Positions 4,441-52,724 of a stretch of DNA of 64,000 nt are shown piece after piece (position 1 is the first letter of the stretch; every line of letters starts with the position of its first letter). Position numbers and translations under genes: made by a program. This stretch comes from Kalaharituber pfeilii (lineage: Eukaryota; Ascomycota; Pezizomycetes; Pezizales; Pezizaceae): assembly GCA_015179045.1 (NCBI GenBank), contig WHUZ01000022.1:705239-769238 (forward strand). The letters are read 5' to 3'. The notes under the pieces are model-generated. The model did no database searches, was not told where the DNA came from, and saw only the letters and a list, made by a program, of their open reading frames with translations.

Positions 4441-6300
4441 AGGTCACCTGCGGGATGACCCCGGACAGGTACTTTTTACCTGTCCGCTCAGGGACAGGTA
4501 GTTCCTTGTACGGTACGCGCATCGCCAGTGGCGTGCGCTAATATGCAGAGTTTTCAAGGGTTACGATTCAGAGGTACCTAAGCTAAGATATTATGTACAA
4601 TACCTGGACATCTAAATAGGTGCAGTGGAAGATACATGGGACCTTGATACAACAAGAATAATATCCTGCGTAGCTTGCTTATCCTCTTCAAGCTCAACTG
4701 CATCTGAGAAGCCTTCACTTTGGCGCTTTCTAGTATTTCTTGCAGCAGCTATTCATTCAGCCAACTCAGCAGAGGTCATAGCATACGCTTTAGCTTTTCC
4801 CTTGGTGTTTTTCTGACGAAATTGATTTAAAGCTGGTGGTATAAATTGCTGGATAATTGGCTGAGCACCATGACTAGCAGGTGCGCTGGTGAATATTCAT
4901 TGCATGTGGCTGGTATGAGTATGCTACAAACATGCAACAAGCTTTGCCCCCCCACCATTTTTTTTTTTTTTTTTTAAATCATTGATCGCTTGCCGCCCAT
5001 GGGACTATGGCGATGCCTTCTCACCAATAAGGGTACAATATAACTGTTAATGATCGTAGAAGGAGATGTCAGCCTTGATTAGTATATTGGTCCTGTGGCT
5101 GCTGTTGAGGTTTTGTAATAGGTAGATCTGTAGGTACTTCTCTGTTAGTCATTGTCTATTTTATGGGTGCTATTGGACCTTTGATTTGCTAGTGTGGATG
5201 GAGAAGCTAAAGAGGAATCTGTTGATTTTCATAAACCACAACTACAAATCCAGTAACTAATACGTAGTCTTGAAGACAATGTAATACATCATTAATAAAA
5301 GTGTACTGCTCTTCAGTAATTGGATTAATTCAATGAAGTACAGGAATACCATATCTATCACCCATATTGCCTATTTAGGTATAAAAAGATATGCATAGGG
5401 GATAGGTTGTTGCACGGGGATAGGTGCATAGAGTAAACGGAGGAATACATGAAATGGTACGCATGGAGCAAACTGCAAACGGCATGGGTACAAACACTGA
5501 TTCCCGTTTGCATATGACATTCTCATGAAATTAGTTAGTGTTCTGGTGGGACTTTTTGAGAGGCCCTTTCGCTCCATTTTTTTTTGAACTAGAACAACCT
5601 CAGCGAATACCAGATCTGGGATCCCTGTGTCTCAGTGTTTCCATGCCGTGTTCTTCATCTCTGTTTCCTATCAGTCCCTTGAGCCGCTCAACCCCTGTTT
5701 ACAGTGTTTTTAAGGTATTGCTAAGAAGAATAAAACCGAGATAATAGGTAATGCTAAATGTTAGGTAATGCTGAGTGAGAGTGAGCATGGCAAGCTATTG
5801 AATAAGCAGAAAATATATGCCAGAACAGTTTTCAAGAGCCTTATATACTATTAAAGCTCTTTAGCCATGTATTTACAAAATTGCGGTAACAGCTTTTTTT
5901 TACTATTATTCGGCCATTTACTATAGCAGGACGCAGCGACAACACAAGTACATAATAAATGGTCTGTATTACTTGTAGACTTAATGGAGGTATGGCCAAC
6001 TTCGGAGGTAGTGGCAGTTGGCTTTGTTGAAAGACCACGTGTCCTGGCTATCAAGTGGTAAGCTACCTAGTAAAATAAGTCCGCGACAGCAGAGACGAAA
6101 GAGAAAAGCTGTGAGTGGGTAGCAACCATATCTTCGATATATGAAGTTATTATACTCAGGAACATGCGAGCTCGCCACCTTTGAAAACTCTGCATATTAG
6201 CGCACGCTACTGGCGATCCGCTAACCGTACAAGGAACTACATGTCCTTGAGCAGACAGGTAAAAAGTACAGTACCTGTCCTGAGTCATCCCGGGTCACCT
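4441..6300. mobile_element. 1.86-kb element with ~120-bp terminal inverted repeats
   Basis: The left end (4441-4561) reappears reverse-complemented at 6177-6300. Both arms share GGACAGGTAC, TTTTTACCTGTC, GTAGTTCCTTGTACGG, GCGTGCGCTAATATGCAG and AGTTTTCAA with scattered differences. The element sits inside the NLR relic, whose homology stops at 4440 and resumes after 6300. No clear target duplication is visible. Inside, two short minus-strand frames (about 5577-5371 and the complement of 4816-4625) could be transposase debris, but I do not recognise a family. Long inverted repeats suggest a Mutator-like or other cut-and-paste class. Confidence 0.8.
4946..5026 (-). mobile_element. Tail-only LINE hairpin insertion (copy A1)
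   Basis: On the minus strand the body starts ATCGCCATAG at 5014, runs through the hairpin (ATCGC paired with GCGAT) and ends in a poly(A) seen as poly(T) at 4958-4975. The flanks GCCCCCCCACCA (4946-4957) and GCCTTCTCACCA (5015-5026) form a 12-bp duplication differing only by three C/T changes. It is nested inside the 1.86-kb inverted-repeat element. Confidence 0.65.
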
Positions 6301-8882: not shown

Positions 8883-9133
8883 ATAATACAGTGCATTACT
8901 TCTCAAGCCTCCGGAGGGGGGCGAACGCGAAGGGGGACACGTTGACGGCACTGCTGAGATGGGTGGAGTCCAAGTGACCTGGTTAGACTTGGTTGCATAG
9001 GGATTGACTGGGATATTTTTGTCTTTTATCTCTCATCTTTCATTATTCTCTCTTATCTCCTATGTACTTAAAATATCGCCATATCCCGTAGGGCGGCACG
9101 CGATCAATGATATTAAAAAAAAATAATACAGTG
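8883..9133 (+). mobile_element. 5'-truncated LINE 3' end inserted in the WD40 region
   Basis: An 11-bp duplication, ATAATACAGTG, occurs at 8883-8893 and 9123-9133. The 229 bp between ends with the LINE hairpin tail (ATCGCCATAT at 9075, GCGATCAATGATATT, then A). This is a classic poly(A)-tailed target-primed insertion. It replaces the end of the WD40 frame with about 17 foreign codons and a stop near 8945. Confidence 0.88.
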
Positions 9134-13896: not shown

Positions 13897-13970
13897 GGTT
13901 TCGTGGTGTAGTTGGTTATCACGCCTGTCTAACACACAGGCGGTCCCCGGTTCGAACCCGGGCGAAATCA
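13897..13970 (+). tRNA. tRNA-Val(AAC)
   Basis: A 74-nt cloverleaf is complete and intron-free. Acceptor GGTTTCG pairs with CGAAATC (one G-T pair), with discriminator A. The anticodon arm CCTGT-CTAACAC-ACAGG places AAC in the loop, which decodes GTT (and GTC after A34 to inosine conversion) as valine. The T arm CCCGG-TTCGAAC-CCGGG contains the B box GGTTCGAACCC, and the A box is TGGTGTAGTTGG. A run of T about ten bases downstream can serve as the RNA polymerase III terminator. It stands alone between gene-poor stretches. Confidence 0.97.
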
Positions 13971-16274: not shown

Positions 16275-19200
16275 ATGAACCGTTACGGGGTCTATCCCGG
16301 AAACACCTCAGCGTCGACATCCACTACTGGTGAGCCATTTACCTCAGATGAAGAATCTGATTATGAGCTAGATGACGCCGACTCTCGAGAAGGGAGTCTA
16401 GAACAACCTGATCCTGATCCTGTGGAAAGTAAAGCAAACGATCCTACCGAGGATGATGCAGCAAAACAGTCCGAATCAGGGTTGACGGCATCGACTCCGG
16501 TGTACGAGATTCCAGACCCACCCCTGTTTCCACTCAATCCAATGGCGCTGTCGCCTGCAGTGGCTTTGCCATCACAGAGTGGTAACCTCACACCAATGGA
16601 ACGCTTTGCTTTCAATGCATTGATTGAATATTACTGTTCTCAGCAAGTGAGGATGTATATCCCGTCGCATTATCCTCAAGAAATCCATGACCGCTATAAA
16701 AGGGAGCTATACCAACGAGTAATTTCTGCTATGGGAATGAAGGGATTCGATCGTGATGAGTTTTCAGGTATACGAGAAGAGATGTTGATGCGGATAGGCG
16801 CAGTGGTGAACACGGAAATTTCAAAGGTTCTCCAGTCTGGTCCAACTAGTCCTTCCATGAGTCCTTCCATTGAGTATCCTGCTGCGCCACAACCAACTAC
16901 CGGAATGGAGAATTTTAATGAAAACCAAGTGGTGAAGATTCACCGACCGAGAAGCTTTGACAATCTTGCTCCACTAGCCTTTCTGCCGCCGAATCACACA
17001 ATAGTACCTGGAGCGGAGCGGCCTGCTACTAGTGACGGGAGGAAGGTTGGAGATGTGCTTGGCGTGGCGGCGGCTGGAGAACCAGATAGAGCGAGATACA
17101 AGCGACGCCCGGAAATACTAAGAGCAATGAGTTTCGATACTCTTCACCAACAAGTGGGAGGAGTAGCAATCAGCTCGCCCAGCGCTGGGCCTGGACGAGG
17201 CTCGTCTGGATACTTTTCAGGTTACAAGACCCCACAGCCCAAGACTCCTATCAACTCAACCTATCCTTTTCGGTTTCGTCCATCTGGGCCCTCTGGACCA
17301 CCTAGAGATGCTGAGCTGTCTGGGCAGTTTTCGTCTGGCCCTCCTCGAGGCATTCCTGGAATGAAACGCTCTAGGTCTCACATTTCTGCCGTCGATGCCT
17401 TGAAAGCTTCTCATATGCTTCAAAGGACAACAGTTCAGAATTTGTCACCCCACCAAGGCCTCTCTACACTGCATTACCCGCAGCCATTGCCACCCTCTCA
17501 TGAGCCTCTATATCTTAAACCTAGCTTAGAAACTGTATTCACAACAACTTCTCGATACAAAACCGATTTTATGGAACTTGGGTTTTTGGGAAAGGGGGGG
17601 TTTGCGTCCGTGTATAAAGTGCGGAATCATCTTGATGGTAGGGAATATGCCATAAAGAAGGTTCCTATTAGATACAGGCATTTGTACTCTGAGAGGCAGG
17701 ATAAACTGGAGGGAATTTTTAATGAAATAAAAACTTTGGCAAAGCTGGAGCATACGAATGTGGTTCGGTACTATAGTGCGTGGATTGAAGGGGCGAAGGG
17801 ATTGTGGGAGACTCATGCTGATACTCATGTCCCGACGCAGCCTATGCCGGTTTCTGCGGCTGGTGCACTTTCTTGCGGGGATATCAAACAGGGCACTGGA
17901 ACCAAGGAGTTTGCGACGACTGCTGCGGGTAAGAGAGAGGCTACCCCGATGGCTGAGAGGTTTCCAGTATTTAATGAAGCGATATTTGATAAAAAGGAAT
18001 TTGATGATCCATTCAATACGGCATTTTCGTCCGAATCTATGAACGATGACTCCATGGAAATACATTTTGGGGATGATACAACGAATGAGGATGATGGTGA
18101 TAGCGATGGTGCCTCCAACGGTGGGAAGAGCAAGAGAGCTAAGGTGGAGTCTGATGATTCGGATGATGAATTGGACGATTCAGATGAGCCTAGTAAAGAC
18201 ACTGTTGAAGACCGTACCGAGCAGATATTGAAAGAGGAGGTGCTTTCAGATATGGATGTGGAGATTATTCCACGATTGCTGTCTCCGACCGCGCCATATC
18301 AGATTCCACTTCCGATTTCACCACAGTATCAACCAGATCATCTGCGGGCAAGGAGAAGGAGCTTTGTGTCGGCAGTGGATGCAGAAGGGAACGAGATGCC
18401 GTATCCAGAGTCTTATGCGACAGGGGGCAGCTTCCCTTCGTCGCCGGCGAGCGGGAATATGAGTGAGGTTGGGTCTCCGAGGGATCCGCAACAAGCTGTG
18501 ACACCGCAGGAGAAGCCGGGTAAGGAGTTTTTGGAAAATTTGCGGAAGCACAAGGCGAAGAGGGAGAGGAGCAATGCAATATCGGATACAGAAGAAAGTA
18601 GTGGTGGGTCGGAAGAGTCGGGAGATAGTGATACGGCGACCTTGAACATCTATAAGCGTAACTCACGAAAGAAAGGTTATGGAGAGAGGAGTAGGCGAGC
18701 GTATCCGGAAATCAGAAGCAGCAGCAAGACTTCCACAGCACAAGCGGACATGAGGGCGTTAGTTAAGGCGAATAGGATGGCGAGACGGGCATCGGATAGG
18801 AGGGAGATACTAACCCTTATGATCATGATGAGTCTCCATCCATTTACCTTGAAGGACTTCTTGTTACTTACGGAGGACGACCCAACTCTTGGACAGCACG
18901 ACTATGGCTTCGCACACCCGACGGAGAGGAATGCTATCCTGAAAGTTCCGAAACATGCACCACCAGATGTCAAGGAGGAGTACTGTTGGCATATGCCATG
19001 CGCGTTGCTGGTCTTTAAGGGAATACTGGAGGGAGCAGAGTACTTGCATCGAAATGGCGTTGTGCATAGAGATTTGAAGCCTGGAAATATATTCCTGAAC
19101 ATTGAGGCGGGAAGTGGCCCGAGGAAGGATGGCGAGTGTAGGTACTGTGACAAAGGATGGAGGGCGGTGCCGAAGATTGGGGACTTTGGGTTGGTTGCGG

Positions 19201-19775
19201 AGTTGTGTGATGGGGTGAGTGTGAGGCGGGAGAGTGCGGGGAAGGAAGCCGAAGATGGAGAGGAGATACGTGAGTTCTGTGAGGAGTATTTGAGGGGGGG
19301 GTTGGTGGGAACGGCTCTATATAGGCCGCCGCCCTCCGGGGAATCGGATAGGGAAGATGTATGCTCGTCAGCGGATGAGGAGGGGCATGTGACATTTATG
19401 ACAACGAAGAAGAAAGATGGGAGCAAGAGGGGAAAGAGATTGAGAGACAACATTATTTGTCCAAAGACGGATGTGTATGCGTTGGGGATTATATTGTTTG
19501 AGTTGTTGTACCGGTGCGATACGGTGAGCGAGAGGGTCAAATGTTTGGTGGAGTTGAGGGAGGGAGGAAGGTTGCCAGGAGATTGGGGGGAGAGAGTGGG
19601 AGGTGTTAGTGGAGGGAAGGAGAACGAGATTGTGGACGGACAAGATGAGCAGAGGAGGGATGTCGTGGAGAGGGTTGGCAGGTGTGTGTTGGGAATGACG
19701 GCGAGGAGGAGGCGGGAGAGATGGGGATTGCAGAGGGTTAAAGAGGAACTAGGGAAGTTGGAGGAGTGGCGCTGA
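16275..19775 (+). CDS. eIF2-alpha kinase, HRI/IfkB-like
   Basis: The single uninterrupted frame encodes 1,166 residues. Kinases of this family phosphorylate eIF2-alpha on a conserved serine to reduce translation under stress. After an acidic, Pro/Ser-rich N-terminus, a conserved-looking helical block lies at about residues 105-180. The kinase domain starts near 427: glycine loop GKGGFASVYK, catalytic K461 in YAIKK, then NEIKTLAKLEHTNVVRYYSAW. An acidic insert of about 340 residues follows, as typical of the PEK/GCN2/HRI group, then MSLHPFTLKDFL, HRDLKPGN (931-938), DFG (970-972) and GTALYRPP. Downstream are TDVYALGIILFELLY and a C-terminal helix. There is no RWD or HisRS-like domain (against GCN2) and no signal peptide or membrane segment (against PERK). 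The usual glutamate after the P+1 proline is missing and about 45 acidic residues are inserted there. Identification as the second, HRI-like fungal enzyme is strong; the exact orthologue name is inferred. Confidence 0.88.
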   Translation: MNRYGVYPGNTSASTSTTGEPFTSDEESDYELDDADSREGSLEQPDPDPVESKANDPTEDDAAKQSESGLTASTPVYEIPDPPLFPLNPMALSPAVALPSQSGNLTPMERFAFNALIEYYCSQQVRMYIPSHYPQEIHDRYKRELYQRVISAMGMKGFDRDEFSGIREEMLMRIGAVVNTEISKVLQSGPTSPSMSPSIEYPAAPQPTTGMENFNENQVVKIHRPRSFDNLAPLAFLPPNHTIVPGAERPATSDGRKVGDVLGVAAAGEPDRARYKRRPEILRAMSFDTLHQQVGGVAISSPSAGPGRGSSGYFSGYKTPQPKTPINSTYPFRFRPSGPSGPPRDAELSGQFSSGPPRGIPGMKRSRSHISAVDALKASHMLQRTTVQNLSPHQGLSTLHYPQPLPPSHEPLYLKPSLETVFTTTSRYKTDFMELGFLGKGGFASVYKVRNHLDGREYAIKKVPIRYRHLYSERQDKLEGIFNEIKTLAKLEHTNVVRYYSAWIEGAKGLWETHADTHVPTQPMPVSAAGALSCGDIKQGTGTKEFATTAAGKREATPMAERFPVFNEAIFDKKEFDDPFNTAFSSESMNDDSMEIHFGDDTTNEDDGDSDGASNGGKSKRAKVESDDSDDELDDSDEPSKDTVEDRTEQILKEEVLSDMDVEIIPRLLSPTAPYQIPLPISPQYQPDHLRARRRSFVSAVDAEGNEMPYPESYATGGSFPSSPASGNMSEVGSPRDPQQAVTPQEKPGKEFLENLRKHKAKRERSNAISDTEESSGGSEESGDSDTATLNIYKRNSRKKGYGERSRRAYPEIRSSSKTSTAQADMRALVKANRMARRASDRREILTLMIMMSLHPFTLKDFLLLTEDDPTLGQHDYGFAHPTERNAILKVPKHAPPDVKEEYCWHMPCALLVFKGILEGAEYLHRNGVVHRDLKPGNIFLNIEAGSGPRKDGECRYCDKGWRAVPKIGDFGLVAELCDGVSVRRESAGKEAEDGEEIREFCEEYLRGGLVGTALYRPPPSGESDREDVCSSADEEGHVTFMTTKKKDGSKRGKRLRDNIICPKTDVYALGIILFELLYRCDTVSERVKCLVELREGGRLPGDWGERVGGVSGGKENEIVDGQDEQRRDVVERVGRCVLGMTARRRRERWGLQRVKEELGKLEEWR

Positions 19776-29393: not shown

Positions 29394-29401
29394 CCGTAAA
29401 T

Positions 29402-29435
<34 letters not shown>

Positions 29436-29460
29436 TCAATACTCGCGTGCCGTAAATAGT
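29394..29460 (-). mobile_element. Minimal LINE tail insertion (copy A3)
   Basis: CCGTAAATAGT occurs at 29394-29404 and 29450-29460. Between the copies are a T run of about 28 and only 17 bp of LINE 3' end (ATATCAATACTCGCGTG on plus). On the minus strand this is the last part of the hairpin followed by poly(A). It is a 5'-truncated insertion consisting almost only of tail. Confidence 0.75.
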
Positions 29461-30458
29461 TACTAGTCCGCGTGCTATATGACTATCCTCAATTAGAAGT
29501 GACTTCAGGGATCCAAAAAGAACTGTACCTTAATACGAGGCCAAGACAAATGTAACAACACAACTGGTCTGCCAGTCATTCACACGTGCAGCTAAATTGA
29601 AGAGGTACTAGAGAGCTAGCTCGCAGTATGACACTACGCGTGTTGGCGAGTTTGAACGTGTAAAAGTCCTCGACTTATAAATGTTTTTCATGGCAGGTGT
29701 TCCAAGTATTGCATACAGAAGTACAACACGTTTCTGGGAGTAAAATAGGTACCACATAACGGCATCTGAACCTACTGAAGAACATAATACAGGCACATAC
29801 TGTACAACGCTAAATTCGGCAATTGGTGAAACATATATGTTGAAGTATCGTTAACCGAGCTCCAAAGAAATGTCTCCACCATCGTTGAGTTCTCATGAAT
29901 CTTAGACAATTATCAGTTCTAATTTTCCATGCTCGCTTCCCTGAGCCGACCTGCAATGAACTATCATCATCTATTGATTTCCACCCCGTGTACCTCCAAG
30001 CTGACGGAGTTGTGTTTCTTGGTTGCATAAACGGCCTATTCACGCCGTTACAGTATAATGCTTACCGAGTACCTAAAAGCTGTAGGATAAGAGATGCCTT
30101 GGGTTTGGCCTGCTGGTATTGGGGAGGCCAGATGACGGCTGCAGGGGAGTGGGTGTGGTGTACCGTGGACATACACATGTGGGGATATCTGGGACGTGCT
30201 CTATCTCGTTGCCTGCAGGTTAACGTTACAGTAACACGTACTTCGTATTGTTACGAGTGCACATGCTCTCTATAACTCGGCAAAGCTATTTAATTCGTCT
30301 CCACTTATCTTATGGCCAAAATAAGTCCTTGTAGAGTATTAATTTCCCTTTCTGTTCTTTTCTTTTCTTTTCTTTTTCTTTTTTTTTGCTTTTTTCCTCT
30401 CTTAAATATCTTGTTTAACATTTCTAGGCCCGCAATTACTGGGTCATGAGAGACATAT

Positions 30459-31494: not shown

Positions 31495-32233
31495 TTTTTT
31501 TTTTTTTTTTATATCATTACTCGCGTGCCGCCCTACGGGCTATGGCGAGGGTTTTATTAAAAGGACCAAAACAAAACAATCTGGCTAATTACATGTGATG
31601 CCCGCGGTGTTCATTCATGATGCGGGTGGTAGCAACGGCAAGTCAGCGAGTCCTATCTCCTTCTTCTGTCCGACTCGTACTTGCATGCCCTCAACCATTT
31701 CCCTCCTAAGCGCACTCTCTGAATTTCAGTCTCATCCTCCAGGTATACTACGGCTGAGCTGGTCTTCTTTCCCTCCTCTATCAACAGCTCCTTTCGTCTC
31801 AGCCATCTAATCCCAACGGTCTTCCCTATTTCTTTGTTTGCTTCCTCCAGCCATCTTCGGACCTTCCCCAAGTCCTTTCTTAGGGCTATTCCATGTACTA
31901 CGATGCCGACTTTGTTGGTGTTGGCTTCGGGGCTGGGAGGAGGAGCGCTTCTGGTGTTTGGGTTAGACGTAGTGTTCCTGTGTCTGGGGGTGCGTCTCGG
32001 GGTGGGCTCGGGGGTTGGGGTGGAACCGTGGAATCCGATTTGGTTGTGGCAGCGGGGGTATCTTCCTTTTGGGCTGCCGGAGTGACTGTCTCGGACGCCG
32101 CGATCTTCCTTGCTTCCTTGTCACTGAGCTGGCGTTTGAGGGCGTAGTCATCTAGGTTCGTCGGTGTCTTGCCCTTGCGCTTCTTGGAAGGCTTCTTTTG
32201 GTTGTTCGCGGGCGGAGTCGGTGGTGTTCTCAT
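31495..32233 (-). mobile_element. Internally deleted LINE: ORF1 remnant joined to the 3' tail
   Basis: On the minus strand a frame from 32233 (MRTPPTPPANNQKK, basic and Pro/Thr-rich) continues after one frameshift near 31930 into NTNKVGIVVHGIAL and GKVRRWLEEANKEIGKTVGIRW, ending about 31653. This resembles the ORF1 (gag-like) protein of Tad-type fungal LINEs. Just beyond, 31549-31511 is the LINE hairpin tail (CTCGCCATAG...GCGAG), followed by poly(A) (T run 31495-31510). The reverse transcriptase ORF2 is absent. No target duplication was identified, so it may also be two neighbouring insertions. Confidence 0.65.
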
Positions 32234-33306: not shown

Positions 33307-33459
33307 GAGACTTGGAATCATCGCCATAGCCCCCAGGTTCCCTCGCCCTAGCCCAAGGGGCGGCACGCGAGTAATGATATTAAAAAAAAAAAAAAAAGCC
33401 CCCAGGGCGGCACGCGATTAATGATATTAAAAAAAAAAAGAAAAAAGAGCCTCGGAATC
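33307..33459 (+). mobile_element. Nested pair of LINE-tail hairpin insertions (copy A5)
   Basis: The outer copy starts ATCGCCATAGCC at 33320 and ends with poly(A) before 33446. Its flanks GAGACTTGGAATC and GAGCCTCGGAATC (33307-33319, 33446-33458) form a 13-bp duplication with two differences. An inner copy, 33338-33395, sits in it and is bounded by a perfect 10-bp duplication AGCCCCCAGG (33328-33337 and 33396-33405). The outer hairpin has ATCGC/GCGAT, the inner CTCGC/GCGAG. Confidence 0.85.
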
Positions 33460-33928
33460 CATTACTGTCGCTCACTATTGAACAAATGCTTAGTTAGGAG
33501 CTGCACATGTGGACAATCACTTGCGCTACTTACTGATGCCGCAACCTTGCCGGTACATACTTCCCTTCGGAGCCGAGAATTTCCTCTATGCGCTCGGCTT
33601 GAAGAATTTCTGAGCTCCAGTAGACAAGAAAGCAACAAGAGGTTTTGTTCATGGAAATGATAAGTCTTCTCTATCGTGGAGCCTATATCACAGCTTTGTA
33701 GCGTATTGAACGACACATCATCTTTGCCCCTATCAGATACATATCAACTTGTAGCAATATAACTAAGGGGGTTCGAAATGCAGGAATCTTAGCTCCATAT
33801 CATAGCTCTGATACCATGGCTAGACTTCTCTGCTCAGTTACGGCCAGCTGTCAGGGTGGTCACCTGGCATAGACACGCAGCCCAAGACCGGGTACCACAA
33901 GGGCCGATCATCTTTCAAATAGTCTACT

Positions 33929-33999
33929 GATGCCAACGTATCGCCATAGCCCCAAGGGCGGCATGCGATCACTGATATAAAAAAAGAAGATGCCAACGT
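33929..33999 (+). mobile_element. Tail-only LINE hairpin insertion (copy A6)
   Basis: A perfect 11-bp duplication GATGCCAACGT lies at 33929-33939 and 33989-33999. The 49-bp body begins ATCGCCATAG, contains the ATCGC/GCGAT stem and ends TGATATAAAAAAAGAA. It is the cleanest example of a hairpin-only copy. Confidence 0.9.
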
Positions 34000-34850: not shown

Positions 34851-34900
34851 CTCGTCATACCCTCAGAGCGGCACACGAGTAATGATATACATATAAAAGG
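34851..34900 (+). mobile_element. Diverged LINE hairpin tail (copy A7)
   Basis: The segment starts CTCGTCATACCC and continues AGAGCGGCACACGAG and TAATGATATA, with a short A-rich tail. The outer stem is CTCGT/ACGAG, a compensatory change from CTCGC/GCGAG. I could not identify a target duplication. Confidence 0.6.
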
Positions 34901-36173: not shown

Positions 36174-36244
36174 ACAAAACTAAATTTTTTTTTTTATCAT
36201 TACTCGCATATCACCCTAAGGACTACGGCGAGACAAAAGTAAAT
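36174..36244 (-). mobile_element. Tail-only LINE hairpin insertion (copy A8)
   Basis: ACAAAACTAAAT (36174-36185) and ACAAAAGTAAAT (36233-36244) form a 12-bp duplication with one difference. The minus-strand body starts CTCGCCGTAG at 36232, exactly at the outer stem, and ends GCGAGTAATGATA plus about 11-12 A. Confidence 0.85.
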
Positions 36245-51698: not shown

Positions 51699-52204
51699 GT
51701 TGGGGGCCGTGATTTTTTTTTTTTTTTTTTTTTTTTTTTATATCAGTACTCGCGTGCCGCCCTGTGGGCTATGGCGAGGTTATATATATGTTAAGTGATG
51801 GGAAAATGATGGAGAAGACTATTAAGTGGTAGGAAAATAATGGAAGGAACCAAAGAGTATGAAAAATCCGTCCTCCCGAGAAAAATGACTGTCCCTTCTC
51901 TCGTGATGTCCTCTTCGACCCATTCCAATAATTCCCTCAGGGGGTCTTTGTCCTTACTCTTCGGTGGATTTATTAGTTCCGTCATTCTTCCGGGCCACCG
52001 CCGTTTCCAGACCCTACACCGGGTGAGTATGTGCGTGGTGGTCTCTTCTTCCTCTCCACACCACCGGCACTCCGGGCTGTCTGCTTTCCCAATTTCGAAC
52101 TGCCGCGACTTTCCGCCTAGTAGGCCTGCCAGAGTTGATACCCGACGTCCATGTCTGGTCAGTGGCCTGTAGCTTAGTTCCAGTCTGTTTGTTGGGGGCC
52201 GTGA
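51699..52204 (-). mobile_element. 5'-truncated LINE with ORF2 C-terminus, hairpin tail and poly(A)
   Basis: A perfect 14-bp duplication GTTGGGGGCCGTGA lies at 51699-51712 and 52191-52204. The 478 bp between, read on minus, encode the end of a non-LTR retrotransposon ORF2: SYRPLTRHGRRVSTLAGLL, then a CCHC zinc knuckle (C-x2-C-x8-H-x4-C, CRWCG...HILTRC), ending near 51791. After the stop comes the 3' tail with hairpin CTCGCCATAGCC...GCGAG, TACTGATATA and poly(A) (T run from 51713). The ORF2 C-terminal knuckle fits Tad/I-type fungal LINEs. This copy identifies the source of the short tail-only insertions elsewhere in the window. Confidence 0.93.
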
Positions 52205-52724
52205 GGGAACATGCAATGTAACAATATTGCAGCTGAAGAGGGCTTCCAACTATTATTTGACCCCAGCAGGCAGCGGGGAATTAAGAAGCCGGGAAGGAAA
52301 CAAGCAGCAAACATTCTAGCAAACAATCGCCAGTTACAAGCATCATGTATTAATCCAGCAACACTGCAGGTGTGTCACGTCTCTTTAGTCGTTGCTGGCC
52401 AGGATGCCGGCGGCGGCGGCGATGCTCCTGCTCTTCCTGCTGCTGCTAGCTACATTATTGTAGGTCGCTAGAGTGAGGAGAATACTGTACGGTGCTGGCG
52501 GCGGACCCAACCTCCCTTCCCTCCAAGTAAGTGCAGCTACTAAGTGCAGCTACTGCCAAAGCAGTAATCGGCTGGTGCACCCTCGCCAATTCGATTGCAT
52601 GACCGCTTCCTCATGTAGCAGTATACCAGTGCAGAACACATATATCATAGTCCCTGCCACCGCCATCGATTCCCCGAATCCTGTCCCGAGTAAACTCGCC
52701 CCAGTTCTACTTCGCCTCCCCGCT

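Follow-up and report, generated by a model that had tools for sequence, protein, structure and literature searches.

Hairpin-bearing LINE-type 3′ ends and hairpin-only insertions in the genome of Kalaharituber pfeilii

Hairpin copies in the window

The window analysed here is a stretch of 64,000 nucleotides of Kalaharituber pfeilii DNA (GenBank assembly GCA_015179045.1, contig WHUZ01000022.1, positions 705,239 to 769,238), located at the end of a 769,238-base contig in a genome of 78 Mb and 360 contigs. Poly(A)-tailed hairpins recur along this stretch, and direct reading located every copy listed in the first-pass annotation, which had spoken of nine although its list holds ten. The tail motif TAATGATATAA, with one mismatch at most, occurs 11 times in the window against 1.97 expected, and seven of these matches fall at the listed copies. 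An Rfam scan of the window at gathering score returned a tRNA gene (13897-13970) only, and a reading frame of 1,166 amino acids with a protein kinase domain spans 16275-19775.

Four copies, A1, A5 outer, A6 and A8, begin at the first stem base and carry target duplications of their own, as the annotation had claimed; the duplication is exact in A6 and diverged in the other three. A5 outer (33320..33446, + strand) is a hairpin-only retroposon with the outer stem ATCGC/GCGAT and a poly(A) tail. Its left target duplication, GAGACTTGGAATC (33307..33319, +), directly abuts the first stem base, where the insert starts (33320), and is identical at 11 of 13 positions to the right copy, GAGCCTCGGAATC (33447-33459). 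The element is interrupted within its loop by A5 inner (33338..33396, +; stem at 33342-33371), a second poly(A)-tailed copy with the outer stem CTCGC/GCGAG, which starts 4 nt 5′ of its stem and is flanked by an exact 10-bp duplication, AGCCCCCAGG, at 33328-33337 and 33397-33406. A6 (33929..33999, +; stem at 33940-33969) lies between two copies of GATGCCAACGT, an exact 11-bp duplication, and its insert runs from 33940 with the letters ATCGCC. On the opposite strand, A1 (4946..5027, −; hairpin at 4985-5014) is enclosed by the duplication pair TTGGTGAGAAGGC and ATGGTGGGGGGGC (5015-5027 and 4946-4958, 10 of 13 identical), the first stem base being the start of the insert, and A8 (36174..36244, −; hairpin at 36203-36232) by ATTTACTTTTGT and ATTTAGTTTTGT (36233-36244 and 36174-36185, 11 of 12 identical), with an insert starting CTCGCC.

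The remaining copies are of other kinds. A3 (29394..29461, −) is cut inside the hairpin and has an exact 12-bp duplication, AACTATTTACGG, at 29450-29461 and 29394-29405. LINE-like sequence lies upstream of A2 (9075..9104, +; upstream sequence TATGTACTTAAAAT), A4 (31520..31549, −), A7 (34851..34879, +) and the hairpin of the LINE copy at 51.7 kb (51749..51778, −). A4 is the 3′ terminus of a protein-only element, with about 106 nt between the end of the reading frame and the stem that follows it. The reading frame of the 51.7-kb LINE copy (51791..52249, −) contains a zf-RVT region that scores 22.1 bits (E 0.00025), under the Pfam curated cut-off of 27.5.

Structure and covariation of the hairpin

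The predicted fold, obtained for all four hairpins that were folded, has an outer stem of five pairs that an internal loop (CATA/GGCAN) separates from the inner stem (GCCC/GGGC) and its 3-nt loop. The outer stems CTCGC/GCGAG, ATCGC/GCGAT and CTCGT/ACGAG reported earlier were recovered, the last of these in A7; the reported inner stem is part of the fold but is broken in A7. Single-sequence folding gave modest z-scores (−1.0 to −1.9, four hairpins), and the structural case consequently rests on covariation. Across the genome, the first pair is C-G in 1,840 matches and A-T in 1,121, versus 19 with C.T and 28 with A.G, that is, 98.4% paired with a phi of 0.97. At the top inner pair, C-G occurs at least 2,961 times (counting only loops that end in A) and T-A 727 times, compared with 26 C.A and 55 T.G, the last being a wobble pair in RNA. 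The 100 matches listed for each stem type are uniform in neither case: they differ in loop type and in the unpaired base that precedes GCGA. Among 82 distinct hairpins, pairs 2, 4 and 5 each add one or two cases of two-sided change. Stem differences are thus paired in whole-genome counts, and the proposal of a selected 3′ hairpin for recognition is supported by compensatory change genome-wide at two pairs.

Abundance and sampling

The 3′ half of the hairpin, GGGCGGCACGCGAGTAATGATAT, has 4,974 genome matches with up to two mismatches, and its reversed control has none; a longer pattern in which the right arm was left free has 1,278. For the study of insertion ends, the 3′ half was collected with up to three substitutions from 148 loci and the window, giving 237 occurrences. 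Exclusion of 45 occurrences that duplicated a place or sequence already counted, nine that lacked an A-rich tail and seven that lay too close to an edge left 176 tailed copies. The sequence following each poly(A) was then sought in the upstream region, over as much as 1,500 nt in general and about 450 nt in loci L089-L148, and 81 of the 176 copies proved to have an exact duplication of 10 nt or more, the other 95 having none by that rule. The rule overlooks some genuine cases: A1, A5 outer, A6 and A8 are absent from the stem-start copies counted below because their duplications have diverged or their tail is interrupted. The sampled loci lie for the most part on the contigs that open the assembly and mostly represent copies with a well-kept 3′ half, and a copy too short to contain the 3′ seed escapes the search. 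As some loci had been fetched with a left-arm pattern, 76 copies picked by the 3′ seed alone were treated as a separate subset.

5′ ends and target duplications

The sampled copies show a sharp peak of 5′ ends at the stem rather than a smooth distribution, which supports the earlier idea of a minimal mobile unit starting there. Of 81 duplication-bearing copies, 33 start at −23 to −16 relative to CGGCA, the stem itself starting at −19; five more start inside the hairpin, eight at −60 to −24, 10 at −150 to −61, 18 at −400 to −151 and seven beyond. With flanks permuted among copies (40 permutations), this 8-nt stem zone received a mean of 0.03 ends versus the 33 observed. The class that starts inside the hairpin is soft, with 0.5 permuted versus 5 observed for exact duplications and 2.25 versus 6 with mismatches allowed. 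The duplications of the 33 stem-start copies are all different. When mismatches were allowed and 300 nt were searched, 35 of 76 copies started at the stem and none did in four permutations; the density at neighbouring positions would predict 1.8 (Poisson 2.8e-32). The start coincides with the first stem base in eleven of these 35; ten others overlap that base by 1-2 nt, and the remaining 14 start 1-4 nt ahead of it, so that a start "precisely" at the first stem base, as first described, is slightly too strict, although the start zone is sharp. The subset picked by the 3′ seed alone comprises 17 stem-start, six near, 15 longer and one inside copy, and 37 without a duplication of at least 9 nt; 17 of the 39 copies with such a duplication (at least 9 nt) are therefore of the stem-start kind.

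The sequence upstream of the insertion is unlike that of other copies in 30 of the 33 hairpin-only cases. As a check on the method, 27 longer copies were aligned to relatives: in 18, similarity starts no more than 6 nt from the end that the duplication indicates, in seven it starts further in, as when the relative is shorter, and in two it continues 20 and 60 nt past that end. The duplications of these two copies may be false.

A second small cluster of 5′ ends occurs at −41 to −50, 22-31 nt 5′ of the stem (loci L043, L054, L109, L128 and L131), and is too small to judge; one 5′ end lies between it and the stem, and the interval from −40 to −24 holds 1 of the 81. L1 elements have the target signature TT/AAAA, and no clear signature of this kind was seen at the 81 duplications from the sampled loci and the window. 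With leading As trimmed, T stands first in 43 of the 81 and A precedes in 45, which is partly an effect of the trimming.

Longer elements that end in the hairpin

The hairpin ends at least two kinds of longer element, one with RNase H/zf-RVT frames and one with a protein-only frame; the LINE-type elements are known here from the C-terminal RNase H and zf-RVT parts read on hairpin-bearing stretches. At loci L034 and L020, an RNase H domain (E 4.8e-15 and 1.6e-15) is followed by a weak zf-RVT-like region below the cut-off, and the RNase H frame ends 159 nt (L034) and 72 nt (L020) 5′ of the hairpin. Copies of one family of RNase H-type element are 97-100% identical, so this family has moved recently. 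RT domains are abundant in the genome, with at least 150 matches (all 150 candidates scored, of 1,113).

The protein-only element (L024:196-1368; L042; L035; L065; window 31.6-32.1 kb, −) lacks an RT and has the common hairpin end. It encodes a proline-rich protein with a shared terminal block, ...SSVVVYL...LGGRWLRA..YE.DRGRK, which lies 100-116 nt 5′ of the hairpin in the five copies read, A4 included. A Pfam search with one such protein gave no match, and the matches listed for it include at least 10 relatives, all named Kalaharituber pfeilii. The element would be a half-LINE with an ORF1-like protein.

Types, junctions and tails of the hairpin-only copies

The 33 hairpin-only copies represent 19 hairpin types, a few of which differ only in the first bases, possibly derived from the target, and 19 of the 33 are identical to a type present in longer copies. 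With so many types, and with many copies identical to a type in longer ones, the hairpin-only copies appear to arise repeatedly from LINE RNAs and not from a single master. Extrapolated from the sample, about one-fifth of the 4,974 genome matches, or about 1,000 copies, would be hairpin-only.

These insertions have a LINE-derived tail, a target duplication and an A-tail, as SINEs do, but a SINE-type head is absent, the duplication abutting the hairpin, and for lack of a head the unit does not qualify as a SINE. Target duplication and poly(A) are also features of ordinary truncated LINEs, but the 5′ ends are not scattered, and the unit is thus no ordinary truncated copy either. A ribozyme of the R2 SIDE kind was sought, and no ribozyme family was found in the window (gathering score) or in 3 of the 148 loci (E ≤ 5). 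The permissive Rfam scan of these three loci (L016, L024 and L068) returned 12 matches, none of which reached the gathering score and several of which lie over hairpins. The best were the microRNA-precursor families MIR8562 (E 0.00018) and MIR7996 (E 0.00093) at an inverted hairpin pair in L016, with about one-fifth to one-third of the gathering scores, and these were taken for generic long-hairpin matches.

Where 1-4 nt precede the stem, they match a LINE context in 13 of 14 copies, where chance would give 5.25 (two of the 13 matches are to contexts that occurred a single time), and few untemplated bases were accordingly added at the junction. In 10 of 21 hairpin-only copies (0.25 expected for each, p 0.02), duplication and element overlap by 1 nt or more, and they do likewise in seven of 13 longer copies whose aligned start lies at or just before the duplication end. 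The junctions lean slightly towards a cDNA that stopped on a template still continuing upstream. Median poly(A) length does not differ between hairpin-only copies (17, n=35) and longer copies (21, n=43; p 0.18); its spread is narrower in the former (sd 4.7 vs 7.9, Levene p 0.02, post hoc), and tails of 14-18 are found in 19 of 35 versus 11 of 43 (p 0.01, post hoc). Hairpin dimers lacking poly(A) are nearly absent genome-wide (one exact match). At L137 (+, ~400-480), a diverged case, a poly(A)-less hairpin fragment is joined directly to a complete hairpin within one target duplication, possibly by a template jump. Under a slightly different filter, a poly(A) run leads into the inner stem or loop in 3 of 176 hairpins, which resembles the landing of a further copy, each time at almost the same position (window 33328-33406; L035, −, near 712; L085, +, near 937), two of the three with exact duplications; hairpin DNA may be a favoured target.

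A proposed mechanism for hairpin-only insertion

The observed basis for any explanation consists of the covariation, the two kinds of longer element, the independent duplications, the sharp 5′ boundary and the many hairpin types. Our main reading, to which we give a probability of roughly one half, is that LINE-type elements of this genome have 3′ ends with a common covarying hairpin and poly(A), and that the many insertions of the hairpin alone, with ends within about 4 bases of the stem, arise when the LINE protein holds the hairpin and stops once this anchor has been copied. The LINE proteins of zebrafish contact the 3′ stem-loop through the region that lies between their endonuclease and RT (PMC4176376), and by analogy with ZfL2 the LINE protein would hold the hairpin here (PMC4176376). 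The LINE RT would prime on the poly(A) and then copy through the hairpin; synthesis would end when the bound anchor had been copied and lost, and the cDNA would be joined at the target, the template RNA still extending upstream of the hairpin. The hairpin is then best read as a stringent-type LINE recognition hairpin that may also fix the 5′ limit of reverse transcription. More tentatively, and somewhat short of even odds, it may be a built-in measuring device: with the RT stopping once the held anchor is copied, the signal itself would become mobile as a whole unit, some 40 nt with poly(A) added, and the retroposon would consist of its ticket alone.

The same boundary could be set on the RNA if 5′-to-3′ trimming of LINE RNA proceeded up to the protein-held hairpin and left about 40 nt plus poly(A) as the template, a serious possibility that we hold to be somewhat less likely. 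The ragged yet narrow end, 0-4 nt before the stem, suits such processing, and the near-empty interval from −40 to −24, which a processive 5′ exonuclease halted at a bound hairpin would produce, is explained at least as well as by RT release; the narrower poly(A) distribution, a post hoc result, agrees slightly better with trimmed RNAs. In work on human L1, ORF2p is described as processive, and the authors prefer host cleavage of RNA or intermediates over polymerase inefficiency as the source of 5′ truncation (PMC10830420). The L1 RT also adds bases and jumps at template ends (PMC10830420), whereas little untemplated addition is seen here (13 of 14 copies), and the poly(A)-less dimers that end-to-end jumping could yield are nearly absent apart from the one exact match and the diverged L137. 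The 5′ ends lie on the far (5′) side of the hairpin, after it has been opened and copied. Since the junction extras match LINE context and the duplication overlaps the element, the sequences would slightly favour RT release over a trimmed, protected RNA.

The other explanations fare worse. Uniform length together with SINE-like duplications and poly(A) could point to a distinct SINE-like family equipped with a promoter and master copies of its own, but 19 types among 33 copies, 19 of the 33 identical to longer-copy types, extras that match LINE context and the missing head region make this very unlikely, as does the Rfam result, with no gathering-score match at the window copies and sub-gathering matches only in the three of 148 loci scanned. 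Ordinary 5′ truncation with random ends would account for the scattered ends of the longer copies, but not for 33 ends in 8 nt versus 8 in the next 37 nt upstream, and RT pausing at the structure would leave ends on the near, 3′ side of the hairpin; we regard either as scarcely credible for the hairpin-only copies.

Comparison with known systems

HAL1 half-LINEs are protein-only elements with a LINE 3′ end, and the protein-only element described here resembles them in having such an end; the LINE ORF1 origin of its protein is putative. The hairpin itself, a 3′-terminal stem-loop with compensatory changes, would work like a known kind of structure, the stringent-type LINE tail, and protein binding would extend to it by analogy. 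Stem-loops of such tails have been described for UnaL2 (PMC5135761), ZfL2-1 and ZfL2-2 (PMC4176376) and a monocot L1 lineage (PMC3747384). Those tails, too, have a 3′-terminal stem-loop, which LINEs there share with SINEs; here, elements with RNase H/zf-RVT frames and elements with protein-only frames both end in the hairpin. An internal loop in the stem is a likeness to UnaL2 (PMC5135761), and compensatory stem changes are a likeness to the monocot lineage (PMC3747384). Unlike the pentanucleotide repeat of UnaL2 (PMC5135761), the tail here is poly(A).

Fungi offer SINE/LINE pairs, Mg-SINE with MgL and Blumeria SINE2-1_BG with Tad1-24_BG (PMC3747384), in which non-autonomous copies likewise borrow a LINE tail (PMC3747384); these SINEs are listed as tRNA-derived (PMC3747384), whereas the hairpin-only copies are headless. 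R2 SIDEs are similarly short and built of what the LINE protein needs, but carry a 5′ ribozyme (both PMC3414825), of which none was found in the window or in the three loci scanned. Among the matches listed in open-licence PMC papers, we found no report of LINE copies with a 5′ end fixed at the 3′ hairpin. The hairpin-only copies show how small a retroposon can be, and the link between recognition, release and truncation becomes testable with a short RNA and one protein. In contrast to the stringent-type tails of the papers cited, the K. pfeilii hairpin has a stem that doubles as the 5′ limit of a large class of insertions. It provides one fixed and visible cut point in a large share of the copies with readable ends, and this point is linked to the hairpin by which enzymes of this type would be anchored.
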